Positions 6,401-59,325 of a DNA stretch of 64,000 nucleotides are shown here, one piece after another. The position numbers and the translations under genes are program-made. Every line of letters begins with the position of its first letter. The first letter of the stretch is position 1. The notes under the pieces were generated by a model. It saw only the letters and a program-made list of their open reading frames with translations. It had not been told where the DNA came from and searched no databases. Source of the stretch: Antedon mediterranea (Eukaryota > Echinodermata > Crinoidea > Comatulida > Antedonidae); NCBI RefSeq assembly GCF_964355755.1, contig NC_092675.1, forward strand, positions 7,536,312 through 7,600,311, in the 5' to 3' direction.

Positions 6401-9400
6401 CTGGACAGTGAGAAAAAAATCCAAACTGAAATTAAAGTCAGTTTAGTATAAGAAAATGTATAAGAATATCCAGTACAATCCTCCCTCCCCAATCCCCCCT
6501 CCCCCTCCCCCTCCCCAATCCCCCCTCCCCCGGTAAAATATCCCCTGGACTACCTCTTGGACCACTGTTTCTTTGATGAAATTGAAGCATTTTGTGATGC
6601 CTTTGATTTAAGGTTAAACACAAGTTAAACCAAAGGCATGTGGATATAGGTTCGAATAAAAATAAAATGTTCAAACCTTTGAATATCACCTGGACAATAG
6701 ACATTTTATTATTAATTTAAATTTATCGGAATATGTATAGAAAAGAACTGGGTTGAAAAGATTACCCATTTAGAAAACAATTTACATTTCTGGGAAAGAA
6801 AATTTTTATATTTTTAACCTTTAGCAATATCTTAGATTTTTTTGGGGATCATTGTGAGATAAGTTTAACTTCTAATTTTGATCCCTAAAATGGTCTTATA
6901 TAATTGTTGATTATTGGTTATTGTTATAATATTGTTTATAATGAAAGAAAATGACCATTTCAAAATAAATCTTTTTATTGAACAATAAAACAATATTATA
7001 ATCATTTGATCATTAACAAAAGTATTGCTCTAATATAAGAAATGAAATGGGTTTTGGAGCTAAATGGCAATGATATAAACTAGGATAAAGTTTGGAATAA
7101 CCGTGTAAATTGCATGAAATATAACACAAACATTGCCCAGTTTAATTATAAGTTGTTGCATCGAATTCTACCTCGTAATAAATGATTACAAATCTGGAAA
7201 CTAGCAAGGAGTTTTATATGTGACAATTGTGGTATAAGTATTGGGAATGATGAGCAACATTATTATGTTAGTATTATGTACTGTTGTCCAACCAGTATGG
7301 ATACGATTTAACAAATGAATTGCAAAAAAAAATATTTTCCTGAAATACAAGAGATAACCTTTTAAACACTATTTTGTTGGAACGACAAATAAAGTTGTAA
7401 ATGAACTATTTACTTACTATCTATTGTATTTATAAAAATGTGTTTACAAAAGAAAACAGATAAACGTAAAGATGATGTAAAATTTATTTAGTTATTCTCT
7501 CTTAAAGTTAAATATCAAATTAAAAACTATGAATATGCATTTAACAGAATTACAAGATACAAGATAGTCTACTTTATTGTCAACATTTTACAATTTTGAG
7601 ATATGTTTTGTACCATAATATTAGTAGATAATTAAAGGCAGGATAAGTCTCGAGTAAATACTTTACTTTAGTTTGTTTTAATCTATTATGTTATTATTAA
7701 TATAAGTTTTTTTTTCTTTTGTTAATTGTGGTTACCATAGGCCCATGCATCCTGCATCCAGCCTCCCACCTTAGTGTATATATTTCAGATTCCGCATGGG
7801 AGGTAAACAAAAATTCCCCGTTTATGAGAGCGATGGTCTTTTCAACCGTATATATGATTGCACCAAATAGCAATACAGTAGTTTAAATTTAAATAATAGA
7901 TGAAAATGACTCTGGACAAAGGGTAATCGGGTTTTTTTCCCCCAACCAAAGTGCCCTTATGTATGATTGCACGGAGGGCAACAGGTTATGCTATTTTACA
8001 GTTTTTCCTACCAGTACATTCCAAATAAATGTATAATTATACTTCAGACATATCATTTGAAAAATATAAGACAAACATTTCCATCTGTATCCCTTTTTAC
8101 ATACACGATGTTTCAATGGGTCACTAGCGGGCGTGACCCCAAAATATAATATCGATTTGATTTGTTTCTTTAAAAAACGTTTTCCTTTAACGAATACCAA
8201 ATGAATGTTAATACCACCATGGAAATAATTTAACTCTTCTCTGGTACCACTATAATTAGTTATCTATATATTAGTACAACTAATTAACTCAAAATACAAA
8301 TCGAAGTCCATATTAAAATATGTATTATGTCAGACCATGGTGAAATGATTTATTTAAATAATTCCTCCATGGTCAGGCCGATCGCATCGACGCGGTACAA
8401 CGAAGGATTTTACGGGTTTGTCTTATAGATTAGATTCATTATTTCTTTAATCTAGGGCTATATGCACCGAACGATGTCCGTTTTATTACTCCATGGTTTT
8501 ATACCATGTCTTGAATTCTGATTATGATTGTCATTGACCCAATCACATCGCAATAATTTGTCCTTCAGGTCAAAGGTTAACAATTTAACGCATTTATTCG
8601 ACAATTATCTAATTTGAATGAGATAATCATCAGTTAATTTTTATCGAGTAGAATCGGTTAAACCCCGTTTCCACAGGCAGTTTATTGGTTAATTATCGGT
8701 TAATTTGTATCGATTAATTATCGGTTAATTTTTTACTGCGGAAACACGGCCTATAACGTACCGGATCGCACGCGTATGTAGCCTTGTCGAATGTAACAGC
8801 ATGCGAATGTTTTTACATTCTATCGTATACTGTACTTTTAATAATTCAAACTGCAATAACATTGATATGTTCTGTAATGAGCTTGTTTCTTTTAAAATGA
8901 AGTTCATTGTTCACAAATGAACAAACGTTTAAATACTTGGGACTTACATTTGATGAACAACTCTCATGGAAAGTACATATTGATTCTATATGTGCAAAAC
9001 TATCAAAAATTCTACATCTATTTTATAGATTGAAAAGTTTTACATCTCCTAAAATTATTAAAAGATTATACAATGCTCTATTTTTATCACATATTGACTA
9101 TTGTTCAACAGTCTGGGGTACTGGTTCAAACGCCCATATTTTAAAATTGCAAAGGGTACAAAATAGAGCTGCACGATTAATACTAGGTGCTGATATTCAA
9201 ACTCCTGTTAGACAAATGCATTATGATTTAGGTTGGCTAACAATTAAGACAAGAATTGAATATCATACAATTTGTACAATATTTAGATGTTTACAAGAAT
9301 CTGTACCTTCATACTTATGTGATGTTTTGCAATATATTAGTAGTGTACACAATATTCAAACCAGAAACTATGAAAATAATCTGTTGTATTTGCCCAGATG

Positions 9401-12400
9401 TAACCTCGAAATATACAAACGTAGTTTTGTTTATTATGGAAGTTCACTCTGGAATGGCCTACCTTATGAATTAAGAAAACAAAACAATTATAACCGTTTT
9501 AAATCACTTGTTAAGATTCATTTATTGTTGCCGGTGGTCTAGGATGGTTCCAGTGAAATATATTTAAATATGGTATAAAAGTTATAATAATAATGAGAAC
9601 ATGCATTGAAGTTTAGTTTTAGTTTAAGTTTTAGTTTAAGTTTAGTTTAAGTTGTTTGTTTAAATGTGCCGTAGGGCCCCTCGGAAGAGCAGTTTTATTT
9701 TATTACTGAGAGGGCTACCCTACTGAAAGAAAACGAAATAAATAAATAAATAAATAAATAAATGCATAATCAATTTGCCTATGTCATGCTAATGTTTTTT
9801 GGCTGTTTTTTGTATTGTTTTGCATGTTTCTATTATATATAATAGTGTATGTTTTATGGTGGTGGTTGATCAAACCTGTTAGTAGCGGGTTTTTTTTTTT
9901 CGCTGAAGGTTTAGATTAAATAAAATAAAATAATACATTAAAAAAAATCATCAGTCATAAAGTTTAAATTGTTTCGAGTCTTTGTTGCCAATTTGTAATA
10001 AAGGTTCTGTAATATGGTCACAATATCATAATAGTATCATAATAATAATAATGTGACCACTATATCATAGGCCATAGGCCCAAAGCTTGGTTCCCATACT
10101 AGGGACAACGTATAACGCATTACGTAACGCAATGACCAATGACAAGCGACAGTTATTGGTAAACTTGCTTGCGTTGCGCTGTAGTGTGACCTCTATCCGT
10201 GATGTGTGACACTGTATTAAGAAATGTTCCTAATACTGGACAGATGATGTCACATGATACAGATTATCGGGCGCGAATGTTAATAATCATACAAGGACCT
10301 TGACAGTAGGATCGAACAAGCGAATAAAGGAGTCTGGACAAACATTATCGTATGGCCTGTAAAAATATTACTCATTACATTTAACAACATTAATCTAACA
10401 TTACCGTATGACGTGATTAATTTAAAGCTCGGCTACTACATATAGGCATGACTTTTAAATAACGTATTTGGTTAGGCATAAATGTACAAAAATTCAGTAG
10501 TTGTACAGCCTGATATTACCATTTTTTAAATCTCCAGAAAACGATAAATGTTGGGTGTATGGAAGATGATTTTTAATATAGCGCAAAAATAAAAATATAA
10601 AGTTGAATAAAAAATAAATAGTTATTACTTACGGTACTATTCTAACAAAATATTGCCATGACGTTTATTTTCCATTGTTTTAATGCCTCTTTGTTTAAAC
10701 ACATGTGACAGAATAGGGACTTAAGTGGATAATCTCCCCACACTCACTTTTTTGTGTCGTGTGACACATTTTAAAACGGTTTGCCTGCAACCTGGTCTTT
10801 ACCACCTTGTCTTTACCATTGCTCCTACATAATTATTTTACATCAGCCGTCCGATTGTTTGTCGTTAACGCGTGTAGTCCTGCTGTCCTCAATATGACTT
10901 TACCATTGTATTATTGTGGTGTTAATTTTTCTCTCTTTAACTGTACCAGTTTATATTTATATTCATTATATTAATATAAATATTTACTTTAATAATATAT
11001 CCGCACGCTATGTCTATAGAAGATTACATCTAAATCATGCCGCCACGCAGGGAACTGTCGCAACTAAACATCCGACGCGTTGCGTCATCTGATGGGAACC
11101 AAGTTTAAAGCGTACAGGCCTACCCACCCGTAAGGCACTGTGAAAGCTCCGAGATTCGAACCCACTCTATATTGGTATATAAACAAGCATATCAACCACC
11201 ACGCTTCAATGTCACTACTAAAACATAGACCAGCGGTAGCTATTTATACGTAGAGCATTGGTTTAGTTAGATAAAAATAGATACGGGTTATGTTTATTAC
11301 CTTACCTTTATCTGACTAATACCATTTTCCTTGATTATATTTCGCACGTTAATAGTCCAATCCATTATTAACTCGTAATATTTGACATATTTGTCTTTTA
11401 TGATTTCCGAGGAAAATTAACATTGACATTATCATTTGTTGTTGACTCCTTATCCAATAATACATGCAGATTTACATTTACATCTCTCTGCATCCAGAAG
11501 TCGAAATCAAGTTTTTCCAGTAATTTTTCTTCTTGTAGAGGCACGAAGGGTGGCAAATGATGAAGAAGAGTGGACTATAAACCGTAGGTTCAGTGTACAC
11601 AGTTATAACCTGTGTGCACTTTAAAGAACCCAGTTCATTATTTGAGAAGAGTAGCGGGTTACTGGGGTTAACTGGTTCACAAAATAGCCCCTGTATCAGG
11701 GGGATTACCACCTTTCTGATAGGACAGTGATTAATTTACTATTGGTAATCTTTGCCCACATTGCCCAAAGACATAAAATAAAAATAAATCTGTTGTTGAC
11801 TCCTTATCCAATAACACATGCAGATTTACATTTAGATCTCTCTGCATCCAGAAATCGGAATCAAGAAGTCTTTCTAGTAATTCTTCTTCTTGTAGGGGCA
11901 CGAAGGGTAGCAAATTATGTAAAATAAAGTGGTTGGTCACTTAAGTTACAATTCCAGATTTTCGTTACATGGCAGGGTCGCGATATTTTTTTCGTAAATA
12001 GGTTGGGTCACTGTGTTTTACAGGAGTTATAACCACTAGCATTCTCATTTGGATAATAACAATATACATTTTAAACGATTTACAATTTATGCAATACCGG
12101 TATTCAATGTGATGTGAAAGTTCCCCTCCGATGATTCACTATTCACTTCAATAAGATACAATTATATTTATTTCCTGATATTATGATGTAATGCTTCTGG
12201 AGCCTTCAGACCTCGGGAACTCTGAAACACAACCACTCATACACTGCCTCTGTAGCAACGGCCTGCCCTGGTTGTATCCTATTAATATATTGATGGATTG
12301 AGGTATTACATTTGTGTAGCGTCTAAAAACATTAGACCTATTTTAGACATTTGTTTGCATAAACATAAGGAGTACAAATGTTTTATTTTGTAACACATTG

Positions 12401-15400: not shown

Positions 15401-18400
15401 AAGAGTGTGAGGTGTTATTGAAGATGGGTGGAGGTTGGTGAGTATAGGGAGATACTAGCGTCGTGTGTTATGCACTGAGAAGGCTTCTGAAAACCAATTA
15501 AAAAAAATTGCTAGTGAATCTATAAATGTTTATTTTCGTTCTAGCTAGCGTACGAATTTAATTGTGTATCTCGTTTTTTTTTTATAGATTGTACCGTTGT
15601 CTGCATCTGTAGATGACTATGACCCAAACGTGGTAAGAAAATATACCGTTCTGTTAGCACAACTAATTTGCTTATTTCTGTTTCTATAATGGTTTCCAAG
15701 GAGACAACAAGGCTTTATGTTTCTTAAATTACTGTATAACGATTTCGATAACACATTTATGAAATTTGTTATAATGCCGTACAGAAGATTCCGAATGTTA
15801 CAATTGTACTTTTTATTTCAGAGTAGTAATAATCTTCATTTCCGTATAGTTAGTTTAGAGATTAGGGCTACATGGCGCCAAATAAAAAAAAGGTTTTATT
15901 CGACGCGTCCACTCATTTCAATGGTAATCTTTAATTTTGTTTTTTCTTAATTTTTAATCAAAAAGATAATACTGCATTGTTATGTTGTCATGATTCCTAC
16001 TCTTTTTAATTACTATATTAGAAAGTATGGCAAAGCTTCAATGATGACGTGTACAACTTCATTATCTATATGATAACGTTCATGATAGTTGTGAAGATAT
16101 GGGAGGAACACGCAATGTAAGTTATTGACCATAAATACCACACCCATTCCTTCTCAAACATCATATCGTTCCCGTCTTCAACACCACACACCCCTCTCCA
16201 AAACCACACCCACCACTTCTCCAACACCACACCCACCCTTATTCAACACCACACCCACCTTTCTTCAACACCACACCCTCCTCTTTTCAAACACCACATC
16301 CTCCCCTTTTCCAACACCACACCCACCCCTTTTCCAACACCACACCCACCCCTTCTCCAACACCACACCCACCCTTCTCCAAAACCACACCCACACCTTC
16401 TCCAACACCACACCCACCTCTCTCCAACACCACACCCACTCCTTCTCCAACACCACACCCACCCCTTCTCCAACACCACACCCACCCCTTCTCCAACACC
16501 ACACCCACCCTTCTCCAACACCACACCCACCCTTCTCCAAAACCACACCCACCCCTTCTCCAACACCACACCCACCCCTCTCCAACACCACACCCACTCC
16601 TTCTCCAACACCACACCCACCCCTTCTCCAACACCACACCCACCCTTCTCCAACACCACACCCCCCTTTCCAATACCACACCCACCCTCTCCAATACCAC
16701 ACCCCACTCCTCCAACACCACACCCACTCCTCCAACACCACACCCACTCCTCCAACACCACACACACCCCTCTCCAACACCACACCCACCCCTCTCCAAC
16801 ACCACACCCACTCCTTCTCCAACACCACACCCACCCCTTCTCCAACACCACACCCACCCTTCTCCAACACCACACCCACCCTTCTCCAACACCACACCCC
16901 CTCTCCAATACCACACCCACCCTCTCCAATACCACACCCCACTCCTCCAACACCACACCCACTCCTCCAACACCACACACACCCCTCTCCAATACCACAC
17001 CCATTCCTTCTCCAACACCACACCCATTCCTTCTCCAACACCACACCCACCCCTTCTCAACCACCACACCCACCTTCTCCAATACCACACCCACCTCTCT
17101 CCCATACCACACCCACTCCTTCTCCAACACCACACCCGCCCATTCTCCAACACCACACCCACCCCTCTCCAAAAACAACAATCACCACTTTTCCAACACC
17201 ACACCCACCCTTCTTCAACACCACATCCTCCCCTTTTCCAACACCCACATCCACCCCTTCTCAAACACCACACCCACCCCTTCTCAAACACCACACCCAC
17301 CCTTTCCAATACCACACCCACCCCTCTCCCATACCACACCCACTCCTTCTCTAACACCACACCCGCCCATTCTCCAACACCACACCCACCCCTCTCCAAA
17401 ACAACCACCACCACTTCTCCAACACCACACCCACCCTTCTTCAACACCACACCCTCCCCTTTTCCAACACCACACCCTTCAATTTTCAAAGACCACACCC
17501 ACCCCTCACCAATACCACACCCACTCCTTCTCAAACATCACATCCACCCATCCTCCAACACCACAACCACCCCTTCTCTAACACTACACCCATCCCTTCT
17601 TTAACACCGCCCTCTTCTTCAATGGCATGCCATACTTTATTGACCATCAAATAAGCGTTCCCATCGCCCGCCGTAAACGTTCAACTGTATATAGGCCTAC
17701 AGTAATATGGAAACTAATTATTGTAAGCTATACACAATATCAGGCTCTAGTCTGTAACAATAGATTAAGAAAAAGGCTTACATTAATACTATCGAGTTAT
17801 AGAGGACATTAATTAAGTAATATAAGTCACGACACATCTAACGAACATAACGCATATACAAAATCAACACATACATTGGTTACAATGTTGAGATAATTAT
17901 TCGATCAAAGATTTGATTAAAATTAGAAATATTATTGTGATAAAACAGACGTCAGTTATTAAGTAAGTGTCTTCCACGACCCAATAATTGTTATTAAACA
18001 TTTATTTACTGAATAAATAAATCATAATTAAACATACTTTGCAATTACAATAATTTCTATCCCCGTTGCTATGACGAAAAGAATAGTTTGATGACAGTCT
18101 GTAGCTACGAAATAATGGTATTCTGCAATTGCTTTAAATGTGTACAGTGGTTCCCAAGAAAGAAAGGAATTGGACGTTTCAGTGTTAATCTATAACCAAC
18201 AGTAAGGGCGTGTGGCGCAGTAGTGTGTTGGACGTTCGACTACTGATCGATGTTCGAATCCAACTCTCGTCGCATTGCTTGTATCCTTAGGCAAGATACT
18301 TTACTTACCTTTGCCTCTCTCCGCCCAGGTGTATAAATGGGAACCCAGTTAGATCAAAACAAAACTTTGCACTGATTACTAGCTGCTTTATTGTGTTTGA

Positions 18401-24400: not shown

Positions 24401-27400
24401 TCAGATAAACATCATTTTGTTTAAATTAAAGATTTTGAAATAAACAAAAAATATTAATGAACTTACTTGCGTGTAGGCTTACCATTTTGCAATATTGTAA
24501 ATGTTTAATCAGGTTCTATAGTTAATTCAGTAGGCCTATTATGTGTGGTGCAATGCATTTATTTTCTGTTCTACCAGATGGCCTACACGGCAAACATAAC
24601 GCATAAAGCTAATTTTCTCTATTCAACTTTCAGGAATGATTTGGTATGTACATTACACCATCTTTAACCATGTAAGTCCTTTTATTTTATTTTATTTTTT
24701 TATTTTTATTTTATTTTATTCAATCGAAACCAACAGCGATAATTACCGCCACTAACAGGTTTGATACAAACAAAGCCAGGAGAGTTTAAAGCACCTTGAT
24801 TGGTCCTGACATTGATCAAGGGCTTCTCTCGTCCAGTGCCCACCTTGACCAGAAGTCTGAGGCAGATACTAGATGCAGGGGCTGCCATAAGAGTCAGCAG
24901 TGCTGATTTCAAATGCCTAACGGGACCCCAGCTCCGTATACAGCACCCGCTATTCCCAGATGGTCTCCCATCTAAGCTCTAACAACCAGGCCCAACGTTG
25001 CTTAACTTCGGTGATCTGACGAGAACCGGTGTTTCAACGTGGTAAAGCCGTAGTTAAGCTTGGTTCCCACTAGCGACGCAACGTTAAGCGTGGTTCCCAC
25101 TAGCGACGCAACGTAACGCAATCTACGCAACGTAAGAAAATGCCCTTCTAATAATTGTGTTTGCCCCCTACGATGTTTGCAGCACTAGTGCATCGTCGGT
25201 TCCCACTTGTGATTACGCAATATAACACTTTGCGTCGATACGTCGCTGCGTTACGTTGCGTTCTAGTGGGAACCACGCTTAATGCAATCTACGCAACGTA
25301 AGAACATGCCCTTCCAATCATTGTGTTTGCCCCCGCCTGCGTGAAATCAAACCTGCGATTTTTGCAGCACTATTGCGTCGTCGGTTTCCACTTGTGATTA
25401 CGCAATGCAGCACCTTGCGTCGATATGTCGGTGCGTTGCGTTCTAGTGAGAATCACGCTTAACTATGTAATTTATAGGTCCTTACACAATAGATATTAAA
25501 ACCCCTATTAATGGGAAACATTCATGACCCAACAACAACGTACTTACTTGTCCCCAAATGAGGTTTTTTTTAAAAACTATTATGCAAAAAAACTACCTCC
25601 TGATTGCGGATTGTATAAGTTGTCAATTAGGCTTCTACGATCTTTGGAATAATGTTTATTTCATCATTCATTTTCAGTTAGTGGTGGCGGTTTCTCGTGC
25701 AATGAATATGTTCAATAAGTTGGTAAGATTTATTATGATTTAATGTTATAGAAATAGAGAATGTTATGTTATACTGATTGTGGGACGCAAACAGAAATAA
25801 GGAAGACCTTTGACGGACATCATGACGATAGTGACGAGGATCGTTCCTTGATGAGATAACAAAGATATACTAAACGCTGCACTAAGACGTAATAATACCA
25901 AATTTCTCGTCACGATGTACAACCACAAAAATCTTCCCTTTTTTCTCCTTTTCTAAAAGTCCATGCTGATTTTTTTCTTGGCTTGGCTATAAATTTAATG
26001 TGAACTTGAATACATTTTTTTATTTTTTTTATTACACCTTATTTATAGAGGGTGACCCTAAACAGTGTATGCTGACAATGAAGGGGCCCTCTTGATGAGT
26101 GAAAGTGGACGTACTAGGTTCTTTAAAGTGCACATGAATCAGATGTGAACACTGGACCCACGGTTTATAGTCCTTATCCGAGAAGACTCGTTCTACCACC
26201 AGAACGATGGAGCGAGTGAGGCTCGAACCCTTGCCGATGTTAATATGGCAAGGTATTACGGTGCCACTGTCTTAACCGCTTGGCCATTCACCGGAGAGTA
26301 AAGTCTCCACGGTTTCACACAGGAACTATACTGATTATCAAACTACCCCCTCAATTTAAATGACGACCATTACATAAAATACATGATGTAATAAAACTAT
26401 GCTTTTCCAGGGCGGAAAAGATTGGCAGCAACAATAACAGACACGCGAGCGGCAAAAATTGGTTCAGTTGGACCTAACGCAAAGACGGAAGCGCAGCAAG
26501 TAATTTGACCAATCACGACTCGTACGCTCCATTGCGTCGTCGTGATTGATCAGATTAATTGCGTTGTGCTTACGTCGTCGTTTACGTCGCGTCCTATAGT
26601 GCAAACCAAGCTTGATTGTTTATGACGCGCCACATGACTACGCAGCTTTCCAGTCGAAAAGTCATTAAACAATCACCGAGGGCATGCGCAGACTGACTCG
26701 TGAAGAGGGCTAATGATTGATATATTTATGGTGATGGTTAGTTTGCTTATAAAGATGGAAGAAAATAGTAGAATGTTTATGAATAATGATAATAATGCAA
26801 ATAAAATAGAATGAGCAAAAAATGCTAATTATCGTAATTTTTAGGTTGAAAAATGAGCTTTTTAACCTCCTGTACCTATATTAAATCGGTTATATAATCG
26901 CTTAAAACTAGTTAATACCAAATATAACAAATGAAGCGGAATGTTCGTGTGGGAGTGCGAAAACCCTAAACTGTGAAATAACTCAAATTAGGGCCGAGTA
27001 TGATTTATGGTCTTTGAGATAATTGATCTGTATGCATTAATTACTATTGATACTGGTATTTCAGGTATTGTACGGTGTAATAATAGGACGTGAGAAAGTT
27101 TCACGCCAATAAAAAAAAAACATACTTGTTATCTATATAAATCCATGGAGGTAATAACTCCATAATTGATCTATATTTAAAATAATATATAACATATCTA
27201 ATTGTTTGGTTATTTTCAGACACTGCTGTGCGTTGGAGTGTACCCGTTTAATTTCAAACTCATCTCTCTTTATAGTAAAAGTGTAAGTCATTTTACAATT
27301 CATTTGTAGCTTTCGATTTGCGATGACCTACGACCTAGGTCAGGTCGGGGGTCAGGTAAATCAATATGTGGTCGGTCGTCGCCTTGGCATAGAAACCATC

Positions 27401-40096: not shown

Positions 40097-41596
40097 TCAT
40101 ACTTGCGTTGGCATACTGGGTGAGTGCATACCTGGAGCATATATAGACCTACGGGGAGCATACACAGGCCTACGGGGAGCATAAATAGGTCTACGTGGTG
40201 CATGCTTACTGGTTGTAGGCCTACTCGACGCCCTCTTTTCATCACTGGGAAGCATCTCAAAGACTACGTGACTTCTTTCAACTGTGCCAAGCTCTACTGT
40301 TCTATTTCGGATAGATTTTCTGTAAAATTAAAATAAAGAATAACGTTGTTATTAGTCACAGAGAAACACAGTTTTCGGGGTTTAGTAATAACATAGACCT
40401 ATATCATAGGCTATAATTCTCTGGTTTCCCATGAATATTATTATGCCATTTTTGGTCCCATTTTATAAAAAAAAAATCACATTTTAGGTGCATTCACTTC
40501 AAAGATCAAATTTATACAATATACATAAATATTAAAAATAGGTCTACAACAATATAAATATAATTTGATAATTGGCCCATGCGTTTAATATTAAACAAGA
40601 CTTACCTATATTTTAAATGGGCATAAACACCAAGAACAGTTATCAGGAGAGATGCAACGAAAATAATTCCAATAAAAACCATTGTTTTGTTAACATTCTG
40701 CAACGAATCTGTGGAAAGACAGTGTTGTGAGAGGGATTATACCTATAGCGTCATATTTGACGTGATACTCTGATGTCATTTTACGGCATTTGTCTAATAA
40801 ACTGAACAAATTGTTGAGACCGAATATTTTAGTTGGGTATACAAAATACCAAAAGAAATGTATTAGCTACGAATGGGCAAGCCAATTCAATCAATGGGGT
40901 AGGGGTGGGGACTTTTAAAACAATTATAGTTTTACTCATCAACAGCTATACATTTGTACTCACCTAATGATTTAAAATGATTAAAATTATAGCCTGAAGC
41001 ATCATACAACTCGCACTGTTTACCCGTATAATTGCTTAAACACCTTAAAAAAAAATGTTTAAAGTATTAACAACAACACATCGGTTAATCTGTCGGTCAA
41101 GAAACGTGTATATTAAACCTATTACCAAGAATATTAGAAAGTATTTATAGGAAGCTGCACTCTACACTATCAAAATAGTTTGACAAAAAAGTGTTATGTG
41201 CCCAAATCCTGTAGTGATATGACGTCATCGTCTATATGGTCACATCACATTTTTTTGTCACATAACGTTTGATAATGTAGACATAGCTTAACACTAATCA
41301 ATTAATAACACATTAATATTTATACCGATACTACAATATACCTTATGAAGGTGGATCAGTAAAATATCATACTTACACGCAGTGTGCTAATCCATTAGTT
41401 TCGTAACATGAACCGTGAATGCATGTTATTAGGTTGTCCACACTGCAAAGACGACGGGCTGTCGTCGTCGTCGAGTTTAATACGCTTTCCGTCAGCTCCG
41501 TTACCGTTCCAATTTCTGTAAAGACATCGGTTCCAGTTGTCACCGTGTCCAATAATGTCGTTGTCGCATTCACCAGTGCTGTCGATACGGTTGCGG
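40097..41596 (-). CDS. Neuregulin-like EGF ligand, cassette 2 (stalk + EGF + TM + tail with YAPRRP repeats)
   Basis: Exons in transcription order: complement of 41377-41596, 40964-41043, 40606-40708, 40097-40319; entry phase 1, internal phases 2, 1, 2. It encodes a Thr-rich stalk, an EGF domain with all six cysteines (C190, C198, C203, C212, C214, C223 when numbered from the upstream exon), a short juxtamembrane stretch, one TM helix (about 249-271) and a 73-residue tail. The tail has three APRRPxY heptads and ends PTQV, a class I PDZ-ligand pattern. Joined to the upstream exon (56422-56839) it gives 1044 nt, 347 residues. Joined to its own mini-exon (42087-42099) it gives a shorter form with no signal peptide. 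A membrane-anchored, sheddable ErbB-type ligand is inferred from architecture. An orphan EGF-TM protein of another subfamily is the alternative. Confidence 0.8.
40147..40210 (-). repeat. Coding 21-bp tandem repeat in the cassette 2 tail
   Basis: Three units encode APRRPIY, APRRPVY and APRRSIY. At DNA level they contain CGTAGGCCT, related to the TAGGCCTA motif frequent in the window. Confidence 0.75.
41158..41291. mobile_element. MITE family 2, copy 4
   Basis: CTACACTATCAAAATAGTTT and ATAACGTTTGATAATGTAGA are the inverted ends, around TATGTGCCCA and GTCACATCACAT. It lies in the first intron of cassette 2. Confidence 0.8.
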
Positions 41597-41685
41597 CTGT
41601 AATGAAACGGAAAATCATTTAATCTAAAGTCGGGTTCCCACACAGTCACGTATGACGGATCGACCCGAAATACCAATCAAAAGCT

Positions 41686-41860
41686 GGTTCCAACTAGTAC
41701 ACGTAACTTTCACAACCTCAAGAATGCACAGACTACTGAACAGAAATTTGAAAATGTCGAGTGACAAATCATCCTAACTACGTTTGTGATTGGTCCAAAC
41801 TTGCAACATGCGTTGCGCGTACGTACAGCACTTTTTCTTAATTCTAGTAACTAGTTTGGT
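41686..41860. mobile_element. MITE family 1, diverged copy upstream of cassette 2
   Basis: AGCTGGTTCCAACTAGTACA on the left and TTCTAGTAACTAGTTTGG on the right, with GATTGGTCCAAACTTGCAAC and GCGTTGCGCGTACGTAC inside. Confidence 0.5.
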
Positions 41861-42086
41861 ATGCCCGTCATACCTATGAGTATTATCGCTATGTGCTACA
41901 TTATCAATTAATTAGTGCAGGTCGGCGAGGTCTATAAAATATATTTTAATTAGGCCTATATGATAATCTTTTTAAAACCTAATTATTGATAATTATGTTG
42001 GAATCATAAGTTCATAAATTACATAAAAAAAAGAATAATGAATTATTAAGAAGCCTAATTTTGATAATAATTAATGCATAACTTAC

Positions 42087-42099
42087 TTATATTATTCAT
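42087..42099 (-). CDS. Putative 13-nt alternative first coding exon of cassette 2
   Basis: On the minus strand it reads ATGAATAATATAA followed directly by GTAAGT. The donor leaves one base (phase 1), exactly what the acceptor at 41596 needs, giving M-N-N-I-T and then the stalk. An in-frame TGA precedes it with no other ATG in between. Cassette 1 has the same structure at 48614-48626, with about 130 bp of upstream similarity. Evidence is comparative and by eye. A conserved non-coding element is the alternative. Confidence 0.55.
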
Positions 42100-42232
42100 A
42101 ATTCTTATGTTAAAATAAAACTCTGTAGTTCACTCAAATACAAATGGTTGCTGGTTACACATTAACTGCTTACTTCAAGTAATGCATGTTGACTGAAATC
42201 ACCAATTATATATGTTAGGTTCCACGCATGTG
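42100..42232 (-). promoter_or_regulatory. Conserved upstream block of cassette 2 (putative alternative promoter/5' UTR)
   Basis: It aligns with 48627-48760 upstream of cassette 1. Shared pieces in the same order on the minus strand are CATGCGTGG, ATATAATTGGTGA (ATATTGGAGGTG in cassette 1), GCATTACTTGAAGTAAG and AATTATGAAT. ATATATAA here could act as a TATA box. Confidence 0.5.
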
Positions 42233-42427
42233 CAAACGAACCTGACGTGTTTTCTAATTATAATAAAAAGTGTAGGCCCATATTTATATTTGGCATATTC
42301 GGTGTGGTATCAAGTGCAAATTAACTTGTGAAGTCCGGTTAAAAAACACAAAAGCAAATTTCAGAATCACAATAGGTGTAAAACAATAAATAAACATCTA
42401 TTGTTTCCAATTTCAAAAAGAAAAAGT

Positions 42428-42475
42428 TGCTTGGGTGACACTGAAAGTGGGGAAGCCCACATGATTACGTCAATG
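42428..42475. promoter_or_regulatory. Composite kB-like/CRE-like element, cassette 2 proximal copy
   Basis: TGCTTGGGTGACACTGAAAG, then GGGGAAGCCCACAT and ATTACGTCA. It is one of four copies in the window and lies about 330 bp upstream of the cassette 2 mini-exon ATG. The kB-like core is imperfect in this copy. Confidence 0.5.
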
Positions 42476-42639
42476 TTAATTATGCATGACATCCACAATA
42501 GAGTAATTGTATATGTATGTTGGTAATAATAAGGGACTCTATATAACATGGGAGGGAAGGGAATAGTGTAATATGTTTTATACATTAGTCAGTGAATAAA
42601 ACAATAACCCTCCTAAAATATAACACGATATAAAAATAA

Positions 42640-42680
42640 ACATCTTTTATTTATTTATTTATTTATTTATTTTATATATT
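42640..42680. repeat. (TTTA)n microsatellite
   Basis: Eight or so TTTA units, possibly the tail of a decayed retroelement. Confidence 0.85.
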
Positions 42681-42701
42681 TAGGCAAATTGTTTTCATTG
42701 T

Positions 42702-42748
42702 ATTCGCTCGCGTTGCGCTGAAAGAGGGAAATCCCACGAACGTCAATT
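42702..42748. promoter_or_regulatory. Composite kB-like/CRE-like element, cassette 2 distal copy
   Basis: CGCTGAAAGAGGGAAATCCC followed by ACGAACGTCAA. GGGAAATCCC fits the kB consensus GGGRNWYYCC. It lies about 600 bp upstream of the cassette 2 mini-exon. Confidence 0.5.
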
Positions 42749-42964
42749 TAAAATTTCACTAGAACATTGTACCTATAACAATTGAATATTAATAGTCATA
42801 AGATACTTCCCTGGTAATTAATAGGACGAAATGTATAATAGGAAAATATGTATTATAAATAAATCGGCATTAATAAAAAGACATTCATAAAATAAGTACT
42901 ATTTCTATTAGTATATTTCTAAAATTAAATAAGGGAATTTTACGACAAATTGGCCAATTACAGT

Positions 42965-43275
42965 TTATTTTATTTATTTATTTTAATTTTATTTTATGTC
43001 TTTAGGTAATGTGGCCAAGAATTACCAATAGTAAATTAGTCACTGTCCTATCAGATTAGGTGGTAATCCCCCTGATACATTTTGTGAACCAGTTCACCGG
43101 GGTAACCCCCTCTTCTCGAATAATAAACTGGATTCTTTAAAGTGCACACAGGTTATACTACACTGGACCTACAGTTTATAGTCCTTATCCGAGAAGACTT
43201 GTTCCACCAACAGAACTAGGAGCGAGTCGGCATCGAACCCTTGCCGATGTTGTTGGCCTTAACCGCTCGTTAATT
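42965..43275 (-). repeat. tRNA-derived SINE, family 1, copy 4
   Basis: The body motifs TTCTTTAAAGTGCACACAGG, GGTTTATAGTCCTTATCC-like sequence and CGAACCCTTGCCGATGTTG are conserved. The tRNA head is cut short near 43270. The distal end shares GGTGGTAATCCCCCTGATA and TAGTAAATTAGTCACTGTCC with the 11.6-kb copy. Confidence 0.8.
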
Positions 43276-43419
43276 TTTCATAAAAATTCTTCGACACAGG
43301 CCTACATTAACTGGTTATGAATATGATAAGGACGATAACGCAATATGTACGCATTTTATTAAAATATTGTTATATTAATAATAATAATTTTATTTTAAAA
43401 AGTCGATATTGGCATTAAA

Positions 43420-44260
43420 AAAAGTCCCTGTACTTACAGTAATAGTTTTGACGTTTTTTAATTTTTTTATATAACTGGTTGCTATGAGTATAAAATAATA
43501 ATAATAACAATAAAACGTATATTAATTAATAATATTATCGCATAATTATATTTTGAATATGTTTTGCTCTGTACTATAATAAAGGTAATTTTGTTCAAAA
43601 AATGTCAATTTTATGTTATTATTATTTTTACATAAATTTGTATGATGATGACGCAATAATATGCACATATTGTAATATTACCGCATAACTGAATTTTAAA
43701 ACGTCGATATTTTGGTCATTTTTTTTAGAAACAAAGTTTCTGTACTATAGTACAGGGATTTTGATCACAAATGCACCAAATTGATATTTTTCGACCTAAC
43801 TATGATGATGTCTCTGTATAGTACATGGATTTTTTTCTCCACAAAAACACCAAATTTCGATGTTTTTATTTTTTGACTGGTTAGGTTAGGCCCACAACAA
43901 TATTAGGCCTATGGCATAACAGATAGTTTGGCCTTTTTCAAAACAAAAGCCCTGTAGGTACTTACCAATATAGTAAATGGATTTTTTCTCACAAAATAGG
44001 CAAATTTCGGTCCTTTTATATCTTTTGACATAACTGGTTATCTATAATGACTCAAGCTGATAACACAATATAGCAGTATTATCACATAGGCAATAATTGA
44101 AATTTGGCCCCCTTTTGAAAAAAAAACACATCCCCATTCTATAGTACAGGAACACTTATGTATTGATATAACTGTTTACTATATGACAATATTTTCAAGA
44201 AAAAAATCCCTGCCCTCAGAACAGGAATGTTTTTCTAAAAAAATCGGTCAATTGTCTAAC
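43420..44260. repeat. Highly diverged tandem array of roughly 150-200-bp units
   Basis: Recurring order: CTGTACTATAGTACAGGGAT-like palindrome, TTTTTTCTCACAAAA, CAAATTTCGATGTTTTTAT and GACATAACTGGTTA. At least four degenerate copies are present, between the two EGF cassettes. Confidence 0.5.
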
Positions 44261-44687
44261 TTTTCTTTGACAACCTTAATTCAACTGAAGAAAGAACAAC
44301 ATATTATTTAGTGGAATTTTTTACATCACACTTTTATTCTAATAAAACTCAAAAATATATATAAATATATTAAATTTATCATTTGGTAAGTTATTCAATC
44401 AACGTTATATATGCCTTTACAAAACGATTATCGGTACAATTTAATACAATTTCACAATGGACTATTGTGGCATATTTAATTCTAATATATTTCCTGATTG
44501 AAATAAATGTCAAAATATAATACAAATATAATAAATAATAATAATAATATAAAGAAAATTAAATTAAAATTCATCATAATTGAAATTAATAAAACAATTA
44601 TTCGTCTACAAATTCTTTCACATTTTCAATATGAATATAATTTAGTGAAACAGAAAAGATTAAAATCTTATTCCAGGTCATATAATA

Positions 44688-44805
44688 AGCTCTATCTACA
44701 CTATCAAACTAATTTCACAAAAAAAGTGTGATGTGCCCAAATATCGTGTCCATGGACACAGCACATTTTTTTTGTCACACAAAGTTTGATAGTGTAGACA
44801 GAGCT
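44688..44805. mobile_element. MITE family 2, complete copy
   Basis: AGCTCTATCTACACTATCAA and TTGATAGTGTAGACAGAGCT form nearly perfect ends. AGTGTGATGTGCCCA pairs with GGACACAGCACATT inward. This is the cleanest copy of the family. It lies between cassettes 2 and 1. Confidence 0.85.
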
Positions 44806-45781
44806 TTATAAAGAAATGTATTTTTAATGTTGAAACACACAATACAAAATCAATAAATTCCATGAATTTGTCCACATATCTAAATAGATCAAATAGAAAT
44901 CCAGGAAGTGTATAAGCCTAAAAATACTAATAAAATAAAACGTTTATGAAAGGAACCATTTGTTGTTGAATACTATCTTCTACTTTCGCTTTTCTAAGTT
45001 CAATGAATGCTGATTTTTTTAAATTTTATTGTGCTTTATAATGATGAACAAACACCCTGCTATAATAAAGGGAAATAATGTGATTTATAATATAAAAAAC
45101 TGATATCGCTATCCATTTGTTGTGCTCGAATCTCGAACCTGGTTTACGAACGTCGAGCGTACCTACTCTCGCTACCAGTTTTTACACATTTAGGCCTATA
45201 CCTTTTAAATATTATTTTTCTTATAATCTACCATCAATGGACAACCCACTGAATCTTTGAACTTGATCGTATGAATTTATTAATTCAGTCTAAATTAGTC
45301 AATCAACAACCGGTAATTAACTTAGGAAATGTCAAACACTACTTTTGGAGTATCATCATTGCCTTCTTAGTTATTGTTTTAAACAATTCAACAAACAACA
45401 ATATCATAGTATAATACTTAAACATGTATATTATATACGTACAAATTTATAAATTAAATATACTTAGGAAATAATAAATATTTCAGTTTAATATTTAGAA
45501 AGAAGTATAATAGATCTGAACTCAAATCAAGGTGTTTTTGTTGACGCTATAAAACGCATTGTTCTAACGATTAACACGCAATGCGTCATCAAGCAGCATT
45601 CCTTCTTCTTCAAAGTACACTTCAAGTCTTCCACTACTTTAATAAATATTGCACTGTCTTCACGTCTACATTAAATCCCCCTTTTCTCCGTATACAAATA
45701 GTGGATTGTACTTTCAAAATGCGTTTTTGACGATGGTTGTACGCTCTGCTTCAGTACCAACTATTTGTCGCCATTAGCACG

Positions 45782-48377
45782 TCATACTTGCGTCGCTGAC
45801 CCTGCACCGACCTTCGACGTTTTCGTATGGGAAAGCATATGCACGGCTTCGGTCCGCCTACCGTTTGTTACTGCGTCATCTTCATAAGATGCTTCATAAT
45901 CTTCCTTTATCTGACTTTGTTCAATAGATTTTCTGTACAAAGCAACAAAAATAGAAAAACAATAAAGATTTCGCACAATAATCTTTTTTTTTTACAAAAG
46001 CCATATTTTCGTACACCCATAATTATAATATAATTTATTAATAATTATACTCTACATTTAGTAAAATTAGTCTAATGGTATATATTTAGAAATTACATAA
46101 CCATGGAGAAATAATAATATTTCTCCATGGTTTAACGGAAATGGGGAAATAAACTGCTTAGCGATAGGCTGAAATCAATAATAAAATACATAGGCCTATG
46201 TATTTTAGCTGACACAACGTACCAACTTAATCCGTGTATTCTGGAGATTGAATATAATTACTGATTGTATAATTTAATAAAGGTAGTTGTTTGATGGTAA
46301 TTTAATAAACATATTTGTATACAGATAAAGTAAAACAGTGTTAAAAAAGACAATTGTTGTTAGACTGCCTTATTGCTTAGACCTACTCACAATCTCAGAT
46401 TGCAATACGTTGATAGGTGCATTAGCTTCTTTAAGCAACTATTTTGTCAAAATGTTATTGCAAAACCCACCTTTATTTCTATATTATAATAATAAACTAT
46501 TAACTACTATTTTCTACTTTGTTGTTTCAAAAATAATGTACAAAATGCATAAACCACAAAATAAAATAGCGATGCAATCGGGTACATGATAACCATGCCT
46601 TTAGTGCAATATTAAATAAGTATTAAATAAAACAATATTAAAATCGTATAATGTTACAGTGTACAACATATACATATACATGACAGACGTACCATGTAAC
46701 AGTATATCACTGTTATATAGTTCATATATTGTATGATACCGTATACTGTTATAACACAACAGGTACTGACCTATGTTTCAAGTAGATATACACGCCAAGA
46801 ACAATTAATAGGAGAGTTATAACGAAAATAACTCCGATAGCAATCATTGCTTCGGTAAAATCCAAGAAGGAATCTGTATTGAAAAGGAGAGTATAGAAGT
46901 GATATAGAATATAGTCGGGCTAGTTGCATGGATTAACATACACCGGCACCGTAAAACCTCAAAAGATGGGCTTATTTTCAAACAACTACAACTGAATGGG
47001 GCTAATGTTCATGTAAACATAACCGGACTACAAACAAATCCGCTTTATGATACATAACTTTTTTTTCGAGATCAACAATTAGGCCTATCAACTATATTCA
47101 ATTAAAGAGTCATTTTTGAGGTTTTACAGTTTAATACAAAATAAATAATATATAAAAAAATAACATAAATAGTGTTTATTATGAATGAATGCATTTGGTT
47201 GCAATTTTATATAATAAAAGTATCTTTAGATTTCAGATAGATGAAATTATGAGAGAAGATGTTACAATTAGTTATAATGAAAACAATTCATCACGTGACA
47301 TACTGACGGTAACAGACAACATCTTTTACAAAACGCAGCAATGATATGGTATTAATGGATAATGGTTAGTAAACTAAGATTTGATGGAAGCAGCAGAGAT
47401 CACATTGTGCATGCATGGGTGCAGATTGGATGCTTTCAAGAAGAAAAGATCTACACCCACTAAAACCCCGGCAAAACTGCGTTCGCGATTGGTTTAAGCC
47501 ATGTTTTGTATCAAAGTCCCACGCAGGTGTGTGCACCCTACTTTTCTGCTTGAAATAATCTGCACCCATGGATATACGAGTGTGGACACTTATAGCAAGA
47601 AGAGGACCCAGACGACCTTACTTGGATTAACTTGAAGGGTCACGTGGAGGTTCATCATCTTTGAATTTGGTTTAAAAGAGGGGGTTGTTAACTCGGGTAA
47701 CAAATTGCATTCATGTTTCTTGATGATGATGATCTCTGAAATGGTGAAATACGACAATGCAATGACGACGGGAGGGCAAGCAGTGTGAAGATGTAGTTTG
47801 ACAAAAATTGCGTGCTCTCAACGTATTGCAAACTGGATTTATCGAAATAATGTAAAAATGCGTTAATGGCCAACAAAGGTTTACTCACCATCCGTTGACG
47901 TTGATTCAAAGGTTAACGTTACGTCGAATAGCTCGCACTGTGGACCCTTACGACCTGTTGTACATCTATGAAAAACAAAAGATATTTTATTATAAATAGT
48001 TGGCCTACTAAGTTCAAGTCTGGAGGTTATTTAAATTCTGATAATGCCATTGCTTAACGCAGACAATTATTATTATTAAGCGAGCTCTAGTACCGGTATA
48101 CCATAACAAATCTCTTTAACTTTTTAAGAGAAAAAAGCATAGGTCCCTGATAATACTTACATGCAATGTGGCCTGTCTGCCACTTCGTAGCATGTGCCAC
48201 CATTGTAGCACGTTAGCAAGTTTTTCACACAGGGACGGGACATCGGATTTAGTACAGTTTCAATGGCAGCTATCGTAGTTGTAGGCAAGATATCGGTTGT
48301 TGCACTGGTTGCCGTTTCCAGTAACGTTGTTGCTGTGGTTTGGACGACAGTTTTTGCAGAAGCAGCTAGTGTTGTAG
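45782..48377 (-). CDS. Neuregulin-like EGF ligand, cassette 1 (stalk + EGF + TM + tail)
   Basis: Exons in transcription order: complement of 48161-48377, 47889-47965, 46771-46873, 45782-45932; phases 1 (entry), 2, 1, 2, identical to cassette 2. It encodes a Thr/Ala-rich stalk, an EGF domain (C189, C196, C202, C211, C213, C222), a 20-residue juxtamembrane linker, one TM helix (about 246-269) and a 49-residue tail beginning RKSIEQ and ending SATQV. With the upstream exon the CDS is 966 nt, 321 residues. The D exon donor is gtcagt, a weaker site than the gtaagt of cassette 2. The TM exons of the two cassettes are alike (IIFVASLLITVLGVY against VIFVITLLLIVLGVY), showing common ancestry. The EGF-TM order after a Ser/Thr-rich region fits neuregulin/EGF-family ligands. 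Receptor and ligand activity are inferred. Confidence 0.82.
46101..46130. repeat. 30-bp palindrome CCATGGAGAAAT(6)ATTTCTCCATGG
   Basis: Perfect 12-bp arms around a 6-base centre. Related CCATGGAGG palindromes occur near 23703 and 27143. It lies in the last intron of cassette 1. Confidence 0.9.
47408..47575. mobile_element. Small inverted-repeat element (MITE-like)
   Basis: CATGGGTGCAGATT near 47414 and AATCTGCACCCATG near 47557 are perfect inverted repeats. Weaker pairing continues inward (TTCAAGAAGAAAAG against CTTTTCTGCTTGAA). No coding capacity. It lies in an intron of cassette 1. Confidence 0.75.
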
Positions 48378-48613
48378 CTGTAAAGAAACAATATTTTCTG
48401 TTAAGCTTGAGACAGAAACATTTTTTAAACAATTAGATTCGTCAAATCAAGTATATAAAGCATCAAAATGTATCATTCCATGTCACATTCTTTCCTTTCT
48501 AACAGTATAGGTTTTTCCTATTTCAGAGTCTTAATAGTAGCTTTTGTTTAAAAACGAATAAATACTATAAAATAATGAATAGTAGAAAACATGTTAAATT
48601 TCACACAACTTAC

Positions 48614-48626
48614 TTATAATATTCAT
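48614..48626 (-). CDS. Putative 13-nt alternative first coding exon of cassette 1
   Basis: The minus strand reads ATGAATATTATAA directly followed by GTAAGT. Phase 1 matches the acceptor at 48377, giving M-N-I-I-T and then the stalk. An in-frame TAA lies upstream with no intervening ATG. Together with its counterpart at 42087-42099 it differs at one base in 13. The product would lack a signal peptide, as some neuregulins do. Confidence 0.55.
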
Positions 48627-48760
48627 AATGCTCACGAGATATTTCAAAAGACTAAAATGTTGTAAAAGATAGTTGACACGTTGATCTTACTTCAGGTGAT
48701 AATGCTTCAAACCGCATTACACCTCCAATATAAGCTCAGTTTGCCACCCACGCATGCGTA
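48627..48760 (-). promoter_or_regulatory. Conserved upstream block of cassette 1 (putative alternative promoter/5' UTR)
   Basis: It is collinear with 42100-42232 upstream of cassette 2. It contains CGCATGCGTGG, CTTATATTGGAGGTG, GAAGCATTATCACCTGAAG and GTAAGATC on the minus strand. The conservation is patchy but ordered. Confidence 0.5.
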
Positions 48761-48955
48761 CAACCAATTGATGTATACTCTATTAATACATTTAATTGTT
48801 TATACTATTATATTATTTACATTCATTGCGTTAAAACGGAAACTTACTTCCACATCCGGGAAACACAAAAACGATAATATAATGTTTGAATATCCCTGTA
48901 AAAATCAACATCTGTTGTTTGCTATTATAATTTAGGTTCTTTTCGAGTGACGGGT

Positions 48956-49010
48956 TTTGCTTTGAGTGATGGCGCCGAAAAGGGGAACTCCCACATTAGG
49001 CCTACGTCAT
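48956..49010. promoter_or_regulatory. Composite kB-like/CRE-like element, cassette 1 proximal copy
   Basis: TGCTTTGAGTGATGGCGCCG, AAAAGGGGAACTCCCACATT and then CTACGTCAT. GGGGAACTCC fits the kB consensus. It is about 330 bp upstream of the cassette 1 mini-exon ATG, the same spacing as in cassette 2. Confidence 0.55.
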
Positions 49011-49111: not shown

Positions 49112-49164
49112 TTGCTTTGATTGATGACGTCGAAAGGGGATCTCCCACATTAGACATGACGTCA
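49112..49164. promoter_or_regulatory. Composite kB-like/CRE-like element, cassette 1 distal copy
   Basis: TGCTTTGATTGATGACGTCG, AAAGGGGATCTCCCACATTA and then a full CRE palindrome TGACGTCA. GGGGATCTCC fits the kB consensus. Confidence 0.55.
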
Positions 49165-56421: not shown

Positions 56422-56839
56422 CTTCTAATTCAGCGGCTATCTTGCGTATTTTGCGCAAAATCTGCTTTGAAGCATGGTACACGGGTCCTTGAAGTTCAAA
56501 TTCTGTGTTCGAATCATTTATCGCTACTATAAAAAATAAATATGCATTGTCTGGCATTATTTTAGATCCACATGCGTCTAAAATTGTTTCTTGCGAAAAT
56601 ACTTCTATGCTAGAAAATTTCAATCCTTTGGTTGTGAATTCCTTTTGGACTTTGACTTTTAAAATGTTATTTTCAACTTTTCGTACGGCTGCTTTTACTA
56701 TTAAACTGTTCCGCGTAATATTGTCCAGTCGTATATCTTCCGAACATTTATTTTTAGTAATAAGCCTAGTCTTAGTAGGCATACTGGTTACACTCAGATA
56801 CAATGTTAAACACATACATAGTTGGATATATCGAAACAT
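56422..56839 (-). CDS. Upstream exon of the neuregulin-like locus: signal peptide + GGF2-like N-terminal domain
   Basis: Start codon at 56839, donor gtaaga after base 56422, phase 1; 139 residues. A hydrophobic leader (about residues 4-18) is followed by a single domain with two cysteines (K-C-SEDIRL near residue 32 and LDACGSKI near residue 90). The order of a LIVKAAVRKV strand, KVKVQKEF, ACG, then AYLFFIVAINDSNT and a basic amphipathic end resembles the N-terminal domain of GGF2/type II neuregulin-1. That region is of the OB-fold NTR/agrin-NtA kind. Two N-glycosylation sequons (NIT, NDS) are present. The phase-1 donor fits both EGF cassettes downstream. There is no Ig domain between this exon and EGF. 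The domain assignment is from memory of the family pattern and needs a profile search. Confidence 0.75.
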
Positions 56840-56939: not shown

Positions 56940-56970
56940 TTTTATACCATGAACTTCAACCGGAAATTGG
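56940..56970 (-). promoter_or_regulatory. Putative core promoter of the upstream neuregulin-like exon
   Basis: TATAAAA on the minus strand (56940-56946) lies about 100 bases upstream of the ATG. A CCAAT box (56966-56970, minus) sits 20 bases further upstream. Confidence 0.45.
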
Positions 56971-57116
56971 TTTAGCCAATCAGAAGAGAGCACTAATTTA
57001 TTGTCGTTCATACAGTGCGATGGATCATACAAGAACTGTACTACTAGGTCGACAAATATAATTAATTTGATTATAATTATTATATAATTATTAGGCCTAT
57101 AAAGTTAATAATATTG

Positions 57117-58400: not shown

Positions 58401-58440
58401 TTACAGTACCAAGGTATAATTAATTCAATAAAATATAAAT

Positions 58441-59325
58441 AATTTGACTAAACTGCAAACACCAATAATTCCTTTTCATTTAGATATTTTTATTAAAAAT
58501 CCAACAGGGTGTAAAGCTTTTTACAACAAATTTAAAGAAAATGTTTTTGTCAGACCGAAAAGTATGAGAAAATGGGAAGACAAAATTAATGTCAATAAAA
58601 CAGATGAGGAACTGAAACAAATGTACAAACTTCCTTTTAAATGTGTCAGAAAAACAAACCTACAATGGTTCCAATATAGAATAAATAATAGAATAATTGC
58701 AACAAATGGTTTTTTGACAAGAATTGGTATTCGACAAAATGAAGCATGTACTTTCTGTGACAATGTACCTGAAACACTTCCTCATCTGTTTGTAAGCTGC
58801 AAATATGTAAAACCACTATGGTCAAATATAGAACACAAAATTAGTAGGCCTATTCCCTTTAAAAAAATAACTTTTACAATTGATTCGATTTTGTTTGGAG
58901 ATATTTCACGATGTTTTTCTGTTAATACAATTATTATTCTTACAAAGTATTTAATTTATAAATGTAGAATTGGTAAAACTCTGCCAAGTATTAAGGCTTT
59001 AAATATTTATATACGAAATTATTTAATGATGTTAAGGTATATTGCAAGGCAAAATGGAGAATCAAATGATTTTGAGAAACAATGGGTAGACTTTATTAAT
59101 TTATTGTAATATTAATCTTTTTTACTGCTGTTATAGACACGTCTTTTTGTTTATTTAAAAAAAAATGTTATTGCATGTATAAAATACAACATGATAAAAG
59201 TACAATTGGGCCTTTGTTTATAACACTGGGAGAGTGTCAATCCTCAATGCATTCATTAAAGCACCAATATGTTATTGTATGTATAAAATACAACATGATA
59301 AAAGTACAATTGGGCCTTTGAACTG
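58441..59325 (+). mobile_element. 5'-truncated L1/Tx1-like non-LTR retrotransposon with zf-RVT domain
   Basis: The ORF 58444-59109 (221 residues) encodes the end of an ORF2-type polyprotein: LQWFQYRINNRIIATNGFL, then a zinc-binding CTFCDNVPETLPHLFVSC and KPLW. That is the zf-RVT region lying after the reverse transcriptase in L1/Tx1-like elements. The endonuclease and RT domains are missing. The 3' UTR has two copies (59165-59216 and 59271-59320) of a roughly 50-bp segment, ATGTATAAAATACAACATGA and so on, separated by unique sequence. The frame is intact, so the insertion is fairly recent. It is the same family type as the decayed piece at 7.0-7.5 kb. Confidence 0.8.

Follow-up and report, generated by a model that had tools for sequence, protein, structure and literature searches.

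A tandem pair of EGF-transmembrane cassettes

The window analysed here is a stretch of 64,000 nucleotides (nt) from the crinoid Antedon mediterranea (contig NC_092675.1), and its main subject is a minus-strand locus in which two four-exon cassettes lie in tandem. In each cassette (copies 1 and 2, exons a to d), one EGF domain is encoded behind a Thr-rich stalk and ahead of a transmembrane segment and a cytoplasmic tail. Upstream of both lies one more exon that resembles, weakly, the GGF segment of neuregulin NRG1. The original prediction took this GGF-like exon to be a shared first exon that could be spliced to either cassette. Our reading of the sequence points instead to a pair of paralogous genes that lie in tandem and have diverged, and that would each possess an upstream control region and a 13-nt start exon; we put the probability of this reading at about 0.72. 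Coordinates are collected in Table 1.

Re-derivation of the exons reproduced both sets as originally predicted, with the same order, domain content and exon-start phases (1/2/1/2), and all internal junctions of both cassettes are bordered by AG/GT; the description of the products as proteins with an EGF part, a transmembrane segment and a tail is likewise supported. Judged by sequence, the cassettes are clearly homologous: 75 of 103 nt are identical in the transmembrane exon, as are 74 of the 177 aligned residues of the two proteins, in support of the tandem duplication that had been offered as one explanation. The strong divergence reported for the EGF loops and the tails also holds up, with the same amino acid encoded at 19 of 37 aligned codons in the former and at 11 of 43 in the latter.

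We searched the whole genome (354,431,138 bases in 18 contigs) with each part of the locus; the search scores the best candidates only, so further copies may exist beyond those listed. With cassette 1 as query, five of the 127 listed matches fell in the locus and the other 122 had expect values (E) of 8.4e-5 or weaker, while cassette 2 gave nine listed matches, five of them in the locus and the other four at E 0.007 or weaker. The off-locus matches, most of which are short, are probably generic EGF modules. An assembly or haplotype artefact was ruled out, the copies being too diverged (synonymous divergence, dS, about 1.3).

Two repeats touch the cassettes. A 21-bp tandem repeat (3.3 copies, 40134-40203) within the last exon of gene 2 encodes the APRRP(I/V)Y-type repeat of its tail. 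Segment 44850-44681, which lies between the genes, is 69% identical to 41339-41146, within a gene 2 intron; the two resemble a small repeat element, and we did not count them as homology between the copies.

Start-exon candidates and homologous upstream regions

Ahead of exon a, each copy contains a 13-nt candidate start exon, z1 or z2, that ends in phase 1 at a GTAAGT donor and fits exon a. An open ATG-N10-GTAAGT, a pattern derived from z1 and z2 themselves, occurs at exactly two sites on both strands of the window, and these are z1 and z2. Within 42400-41597, z2 is the sole candidate running from an ATG to a phase-1 GTRAG donor (1/1); within 49000-48378, z1 is one of two, the other being 48911-48848. 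Both ATGs have an in-frame stop ahead of them, TGA at a distance of 11 codons for z2 and TAA at 21 codons for z1. When the same scan was applied to larger intervals for candidates of at least 40 nt, 56421-48378 contained two, namely 48911-48848 and one that is not hydrophobic, and 45781-41597 contained none.

Both candidates lie in a block that is homologous between the copies (48926-48546 and 42412-42010; blastn E 1.7e-9). Local alignment across the start-exon region scored 63 against 37 for the best shuffle (0 of 300 shuffles reached it), or 43 against 35 under stricter scoring, and a separate shuffle test of the upstream block gave 69 against 33 (0/200). Two control interval pairs in the same shuffle test were matched by 196 and 30 of 200 shuffles, and the remainder of intron 1 aligned no better than chance between the copies (60 of 200 shuffles matched the score). 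The claim that one upstream exon starts both sets is thus probably wrong, since both copies possess a start-exon candidate, each within upstream sequence that is homologous to the other's. Neither these 13-nt candidates nor the homologous block had figured in the original prediction, which also left unmentioned that the GGF-like frame can end alone.

In both copies a pair of short modules precedes the homologous block, and each module consists of TGACGT, a spacer, a GTGGGANNTCCC-like element and then a CTTTC-like element. The strict pattern TGACGT-N0-14-GTGGGANNTYCC has four matches in the 354-Mb genome, three of them in this locus, and its reversed control has none; a looser module pattern has five matches genome-wide, two in the locus, with one for the reversed control. 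The fourth strict-pattern match lies on contig C2 at position 4302284. A dispersed repeat was ruled out as the cause of the upstream homology, the module pattern being nearly confined to this locus. GGGRNNYYCC, which we take to be a kappaB-like consensus, fits three of the four modules, but three of its six minus-strand matches fall elsewhere in the window; binding of the modules by Rel factors would be a guess.

Together, these features would most simply be explained by tandem duplication of a gene plus its upstream region, with units at about 49.16-45.78 and 42.75-40.10 kb that run from the modules through exon d; the upper edge of the unit rests on the modules. Transcription of each copy would then start from its own control region, and translation from z. 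The hexamer AATAAA was found 12 times between exon d of copy 1 and the upstream region of copy 2, against 6.6 expected by base composition, a weak support that says little.

Table 1 Features of the locus, in coordinates of the window
Feature	Position	Strand	Basis
Promoter-like elements before GGF-like exon: ATTGG 56980-56976, CCAAT 56970-56966, TATAAAA 56946-56940	56940..56980	-	read in sequence
GGF-like exon: 139 codons, end phase 1 (GAAG then gtaaga)	56422..56839	-	exon re-derivation
Module 1a, TGACGT...GTGGGAGATCCC	49137..49164	-	motif reading; genome pattern count
Module 1b, TGACGT...GTGGGAGTTCCC; core starts 369 nt before z1 ATG	48983..49009	-	motif reading; genome pattern count
Copy 1 upstream block, homologous to 42412-42010	48546..48926	-	blastn; shuffles
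Possible alternative start exon, copy 1 only (MLIFTGIFKHYIIVFVFPGCG; phase-1 donor GTAAGT; hydrophobic start)	48848..48911	-	ATG-to-donor scan
z1, proposed gene 1 start exon (ATGAATATTATAA then GTAAGT; MNII; phase 1)	48614..48626	-	13 nt, fits exon a
Gene 1 exon a: Thr-rich stalk and first EGF part	48161..48377	-	exon re-derivation
Gene 1 exon b: remaining EGF, past C4-C5 intron	47889..47965	-	exon re-derivation
Gene 1 exon c: transmembrane segment	46771..46873	-	exon re-derivation; nt identity to copy 2
Gene 1 exon d: cytoplasmic tail, end SATQV	45782..45932	-	exon re-derivation
Module 2a, TGACGTTCGTGGGATTTCCC	42726..42745	-	motif reading; genome pattern count
Module 2b, TGACGTAATCATGTGGGCTTCCCC..., diverged; core starts 362 nt before z2 ATG	42444..42472	-	motif reading
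Copy 2 upstream block, homologous to 48926-48546	42010..42412	-	blastn; shuffles
z2, proposed gene 2 start exon (ATGAATAATATAA then GTAAGT; MNNI; phase 1)	42087..42099	-	13 nt, fits exon a
Gene 2 exon a: Thr-rich stalk and first EGF part	41377..41596	-	exon re-derivation
Gene 2 exon b: remaining EGF, past C4-C5 intron	40964..41043	-	exon re-derivation
Gene 2 exon c: transmembrane segment	40606..40708	-	exon re-derivation
Gene 2 exon d: tail with APRRP(I/V)Y-type repeats, end MPTQV	40097..40319	-	exon re-derivation

Several observations weigh against two separately started genes. The module pattern was drawn from these very sites, so its count is no independent prediction, and module 2b fails the strict pattern. 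The region above the homologous block, where the modules lie, aligns at chance level (score 17, matched by 130 of 200 shuffles). The coding content of each z exon is four residues, with no signal peptide; the likely leader of z2 contains upstream ATGs; and copy 1 offers a second possible start exon at 48911-48848. The GGF-like exon is in frame with both cassettes, and if z is treated as an internal exon behind it, the frame stays open at one of seven AG sites in copy 1 and one of nine in copy 2 (sites up to 130 nt upstream of z).

The last point can be taken further. The frame-keeping AG of copy 1 would give a 72-nt exon after cctgaagtaag, by eye a poor acceptor, and that of copy 2 a 36-nt exon (42122-42087) after gaactacag, a passable one; the two occupy positions that do not align. 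With frame-keeping sites this few and non-aligning, we consider z rather unlikely to be an internal coding exon that follows the GGF-like exon, and the site ahead of z2 means that a transcript joining the GGF-like exon, z2 and cassette 2 would be compatible with the sequence.

A single GGF-like exon upstream

The GGF-like exon joins cassette 1 or cassette 2 in frame to give 321 or 347 residues, as originally predicted, and its frame also ends alone, after ELEGKIH, a few codons past the donor. It had been described as single, which the whole-genome search bears out: the exon was listed once, and the sole further match had an E of 9.3. Its start looks like a signal peptide by eye, with an N-terminal 19-residue hydropathy of only 1.15. 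Its score against a segment of NRG1 GGF2 was matched by 4 of 2000 shuffles and that against a segment of NRG2 by 705 of 2000. Pfam and PDB searches gave no match for the exon, and an AlphaFold model was unusable (mean predicted local distance difference test score, pLDDT, 37.8). ATTGG, CCAAT and TATAAAA, which look like promoter elements, precede it, the last 107 nt from its ATG, and this context suggests that the exon starts independently.

Below the GGF-like exon, it takes about 7.3-7.5 kb before homology between the copies can be detected. Most simply, the exon would lie outside the duplicated unit, which would explain why there is only one, and copy 2 would never have had a GGF exon, contrary to the suggested loss from the second copy. 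The GGF-like exon may then serve gene 1 as an alternative first exon or form a small gene by itself. A literature search, in which most subscription journals were outside coverage, returned no title on this locus or on an invertebrate GGF-like exon.

The first of these options, a sub-case of the two-gene reading, gives gene 1 two starts, the GGF-like exon (for a type II-like form) and z1, and gene 2 only z2; we rate its chances as even. It would account for the TATA/CCAAT-like context and for a donor that is in frame, and NRG1 offers a parallel in that its isoforms are classed as types I-VI by their N-termini (PMC4441363, in excerpt). Type II NRG1 bears GGF and Ig (immunoglobulin) parts (PMC8064692, in excerpt), and the present locus has in common with it a GGF-like exon upstream of an EGF-transmembrane module. 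It differs in that the GGF likeness is weak, the join is only a candidate, and a six-frame motif scan for a 3' Ig motif found none, in a crude scan whose EGF-half motif missed exon b of copy 1; two loose C...W matches lie at 22.3 and 24.7 kb. That the GGF-like frame ends alone also speaks against a second start of gene 1.

That same ending fits the second option, in which the exon belongs to an unrelated gene, or to one that stands alone, and lies upstream by chance. This is compatible with two separately started genes and possible, though we favour it less than an alternative first exon. The stop a few codons beyond the donor, the lack of Pfam or PDB matches, the weak likeness to NRG1 GGF2 and the lack of any to NRG2 agree with it. 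Chance placement sits poorly with a strong donor exactly where the frame ends, in a phase that fits the cassettes, and with the exon's position as a neighbour of EGF-transmembrane genes.

The original proposal, a single neuregulin-like gene whose shared GGF-like first exon is spliced to cassette 1 or, skipping cassette 1, to cassette 2, now appears unlikely. It retains the in-frame joins with good splice sites, the one listing of the GGF-like exon in the genome and the 36-nt extension of z2 (42122-42087) that also keeps the frame. The phase match alone is a weak argument; phase 1 is common for extracellular exons, and both cassettes have homologous start-exon candidates and upstream regions of their own.

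Quite doubtful, finally, is a start of copy 1 at the hydrophobic exon 48911-48848, and of copy 2 at a diverged counterpart, in place of z: the exon has a phase-1 GTAAGT donor and a hydrophobic start, and its site lies within the homologous block and is open in copy 2 by eye, but the aligned position in copy 2 reads GTTAAT, which is no donor and falls by eye in another phase, whereas the z donor is identical in both copies.

Predicted proteins and their possible working

Under the two-gene reading, the z-started proteins have 186 and 212 residues and align from the first Met through the terminal TQV. They have no signal peptide: the maximal N-terminal 19-residue hydropathy is 0.90 in copy 1 and 0.89 in copy 2, against 3.13 and 2.80 for the transmembrane segment, and membrane entry would therefore depend on the latter. 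The predicted product of each gene is a small single-pass protein in which a short N-terminus and a Thr-rich stalk precede one EGF domain, followed by the transmembrane segment and a short tail that ends in TQV. The hydrophobic segment might act as an uncleaved signal-anchor with the N-terminus outside, as we suppose for neuregulin-4, and the EGF part could serve as a local signal, displayed or shed close to the cell. Both copies retain the TQV end though their tails otherwise diverge. Such an end is a class I PDZ motif, and it may dock a PDZ protein in both copies.

Receptor domains of the EGFR type are encoded elsewhere in the genome, with Recep_L and GF_recep_IV matches at two places on contig 2; in this search one control genome, E. 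coli, also gave a match, below the cut-off. The two places (C2:17702212-17718411 and C2:14114287-14142635), each with Recep_L_domain and GF_recep_IV, are possibly two EGFR-type receptor genes.

Relation to known EGF systems

Membership of the EGFR/ErbB ligands received mixed answers. In both copies, splice signals predict a phase-2 intron between EGF cysteines 4 and 5 that splits a residue, and this hallmark intron is near-invariant in EGF-family ligands (PMC12485627, in excerpt). The cysteine gaps are 6-5-8-1-8 in copy 1 and 7-4-8-1-8 in copy 2, and the C3-C4 gap of 8 in both lies outside the CX10-13 of the ligand spacing CX7CX4-5CX10-13CXCX8C (PMC8943033, in excerpt); CX10 is given for seven EGFR ligands (PMC8657471, in excerpt).

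The Pfam EGF scores of the two domains, 21.4 bits (copy 1) and 13.8 bits (copy 2), both fall below the cut-off of 21.5. In the PDB the best matches were Notch chains, whose whole-chain E values (1.1e-6 and 1.8e-6) sum over several repeats; TGF-alpha (copy 1, best E 0.03) and epigen (copy 2, E 0.011) matched more weakly. The likeness to Notch modules extends to the C3-C4 spacing, which is 8 in these as well; the present genes differ from them in that their EGF is single, adjoins a transmembrane segment and is interrupted by the predicted C4-C5 intron. As a rule, EGFR/ErbB ligands have an Arg before cysteine 6 (GxRC), and both copies have Gln there (GPQC, GKQC). Given these mixed results, we describe both as EGF-transmembrane genes with what appears to be an ErbB-ligand gene structure and file them neither as ErbB ligands nor as neuregulins. 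The neuregulin-like character first proposed finds partial support: the likeness to GGF is weak, the simple scan showed no Ig motif, and the C3-C4 spacing departs from the ligand pattern.

Among individual systems, NRG4 has an EGF and a transmembrane segment but no signal peptide or Ig (PMC8064692, in excerpt), and in this it resembles the predicted z-started proteins, for which the simple scan showed no Ig motif; it differs from the present genes, which have a Thr-rich stalk before the EGF, a C3-C4 gap of 8 and TQV tails. The Epgn-Ereg-Areg-Btc cluster likewise consists of tandem-multiplied EGF-transmembrane ligand genes (PMC2834686, in excerpt); the present pair is a separate, smaller case with another EGF spacing. 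A survey records an NRG-type ligand and no EGF-type ligand in sea urchin (PMC4914847, in excerpt), from which we draw no inference for this locus.

Other features of the window

Away from the locus, a C-rich minisatellite (16137-17608; units of 23, 45 and 68 bp) is open in several frames, for up to 489 residues, and is probably no gene. A 5S ribosomal RNA gene (24935-25055, minus strand, 70 bits) adjoins a 30-bp tandem repeat (25053-25114). On the plus strand, frames at 830-1138 and 1923-2270 look by eye as if they came from a SPARC-like gene (follistatin/Kazal-type and EF-hand parts), and open frames of 213 and 225 residues (8901-9542 and 58432-59109) look, also by eye, like pieces of retroelements of the LINE (long interspersed nuclear element) type.

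Implications

The separate observations could be combined into one scheme, in which a GGF-type first exon is spliceable to either EGF-transmembrane-tail module, each module also has its own promoter, and all are under a nearly locus-specific TGACGT/GGGANNTCCC control module. We consider this scheme improbable; if true, one region would yield two EGF signals, with and without a cleavable start. On the reading that we prefer, of two tandem paralogous genes, the claimed exon-choice system would become a simpler testable case, a duplicated pair of membrane EGF genes in which a nearly unique upstream module and a C-terminal TQV were kept and the EGF loops and tails diverged. Should an EGFR-type receptor mediate signalling by these proteins, the cysteine spacing published for such ligands would be widened.

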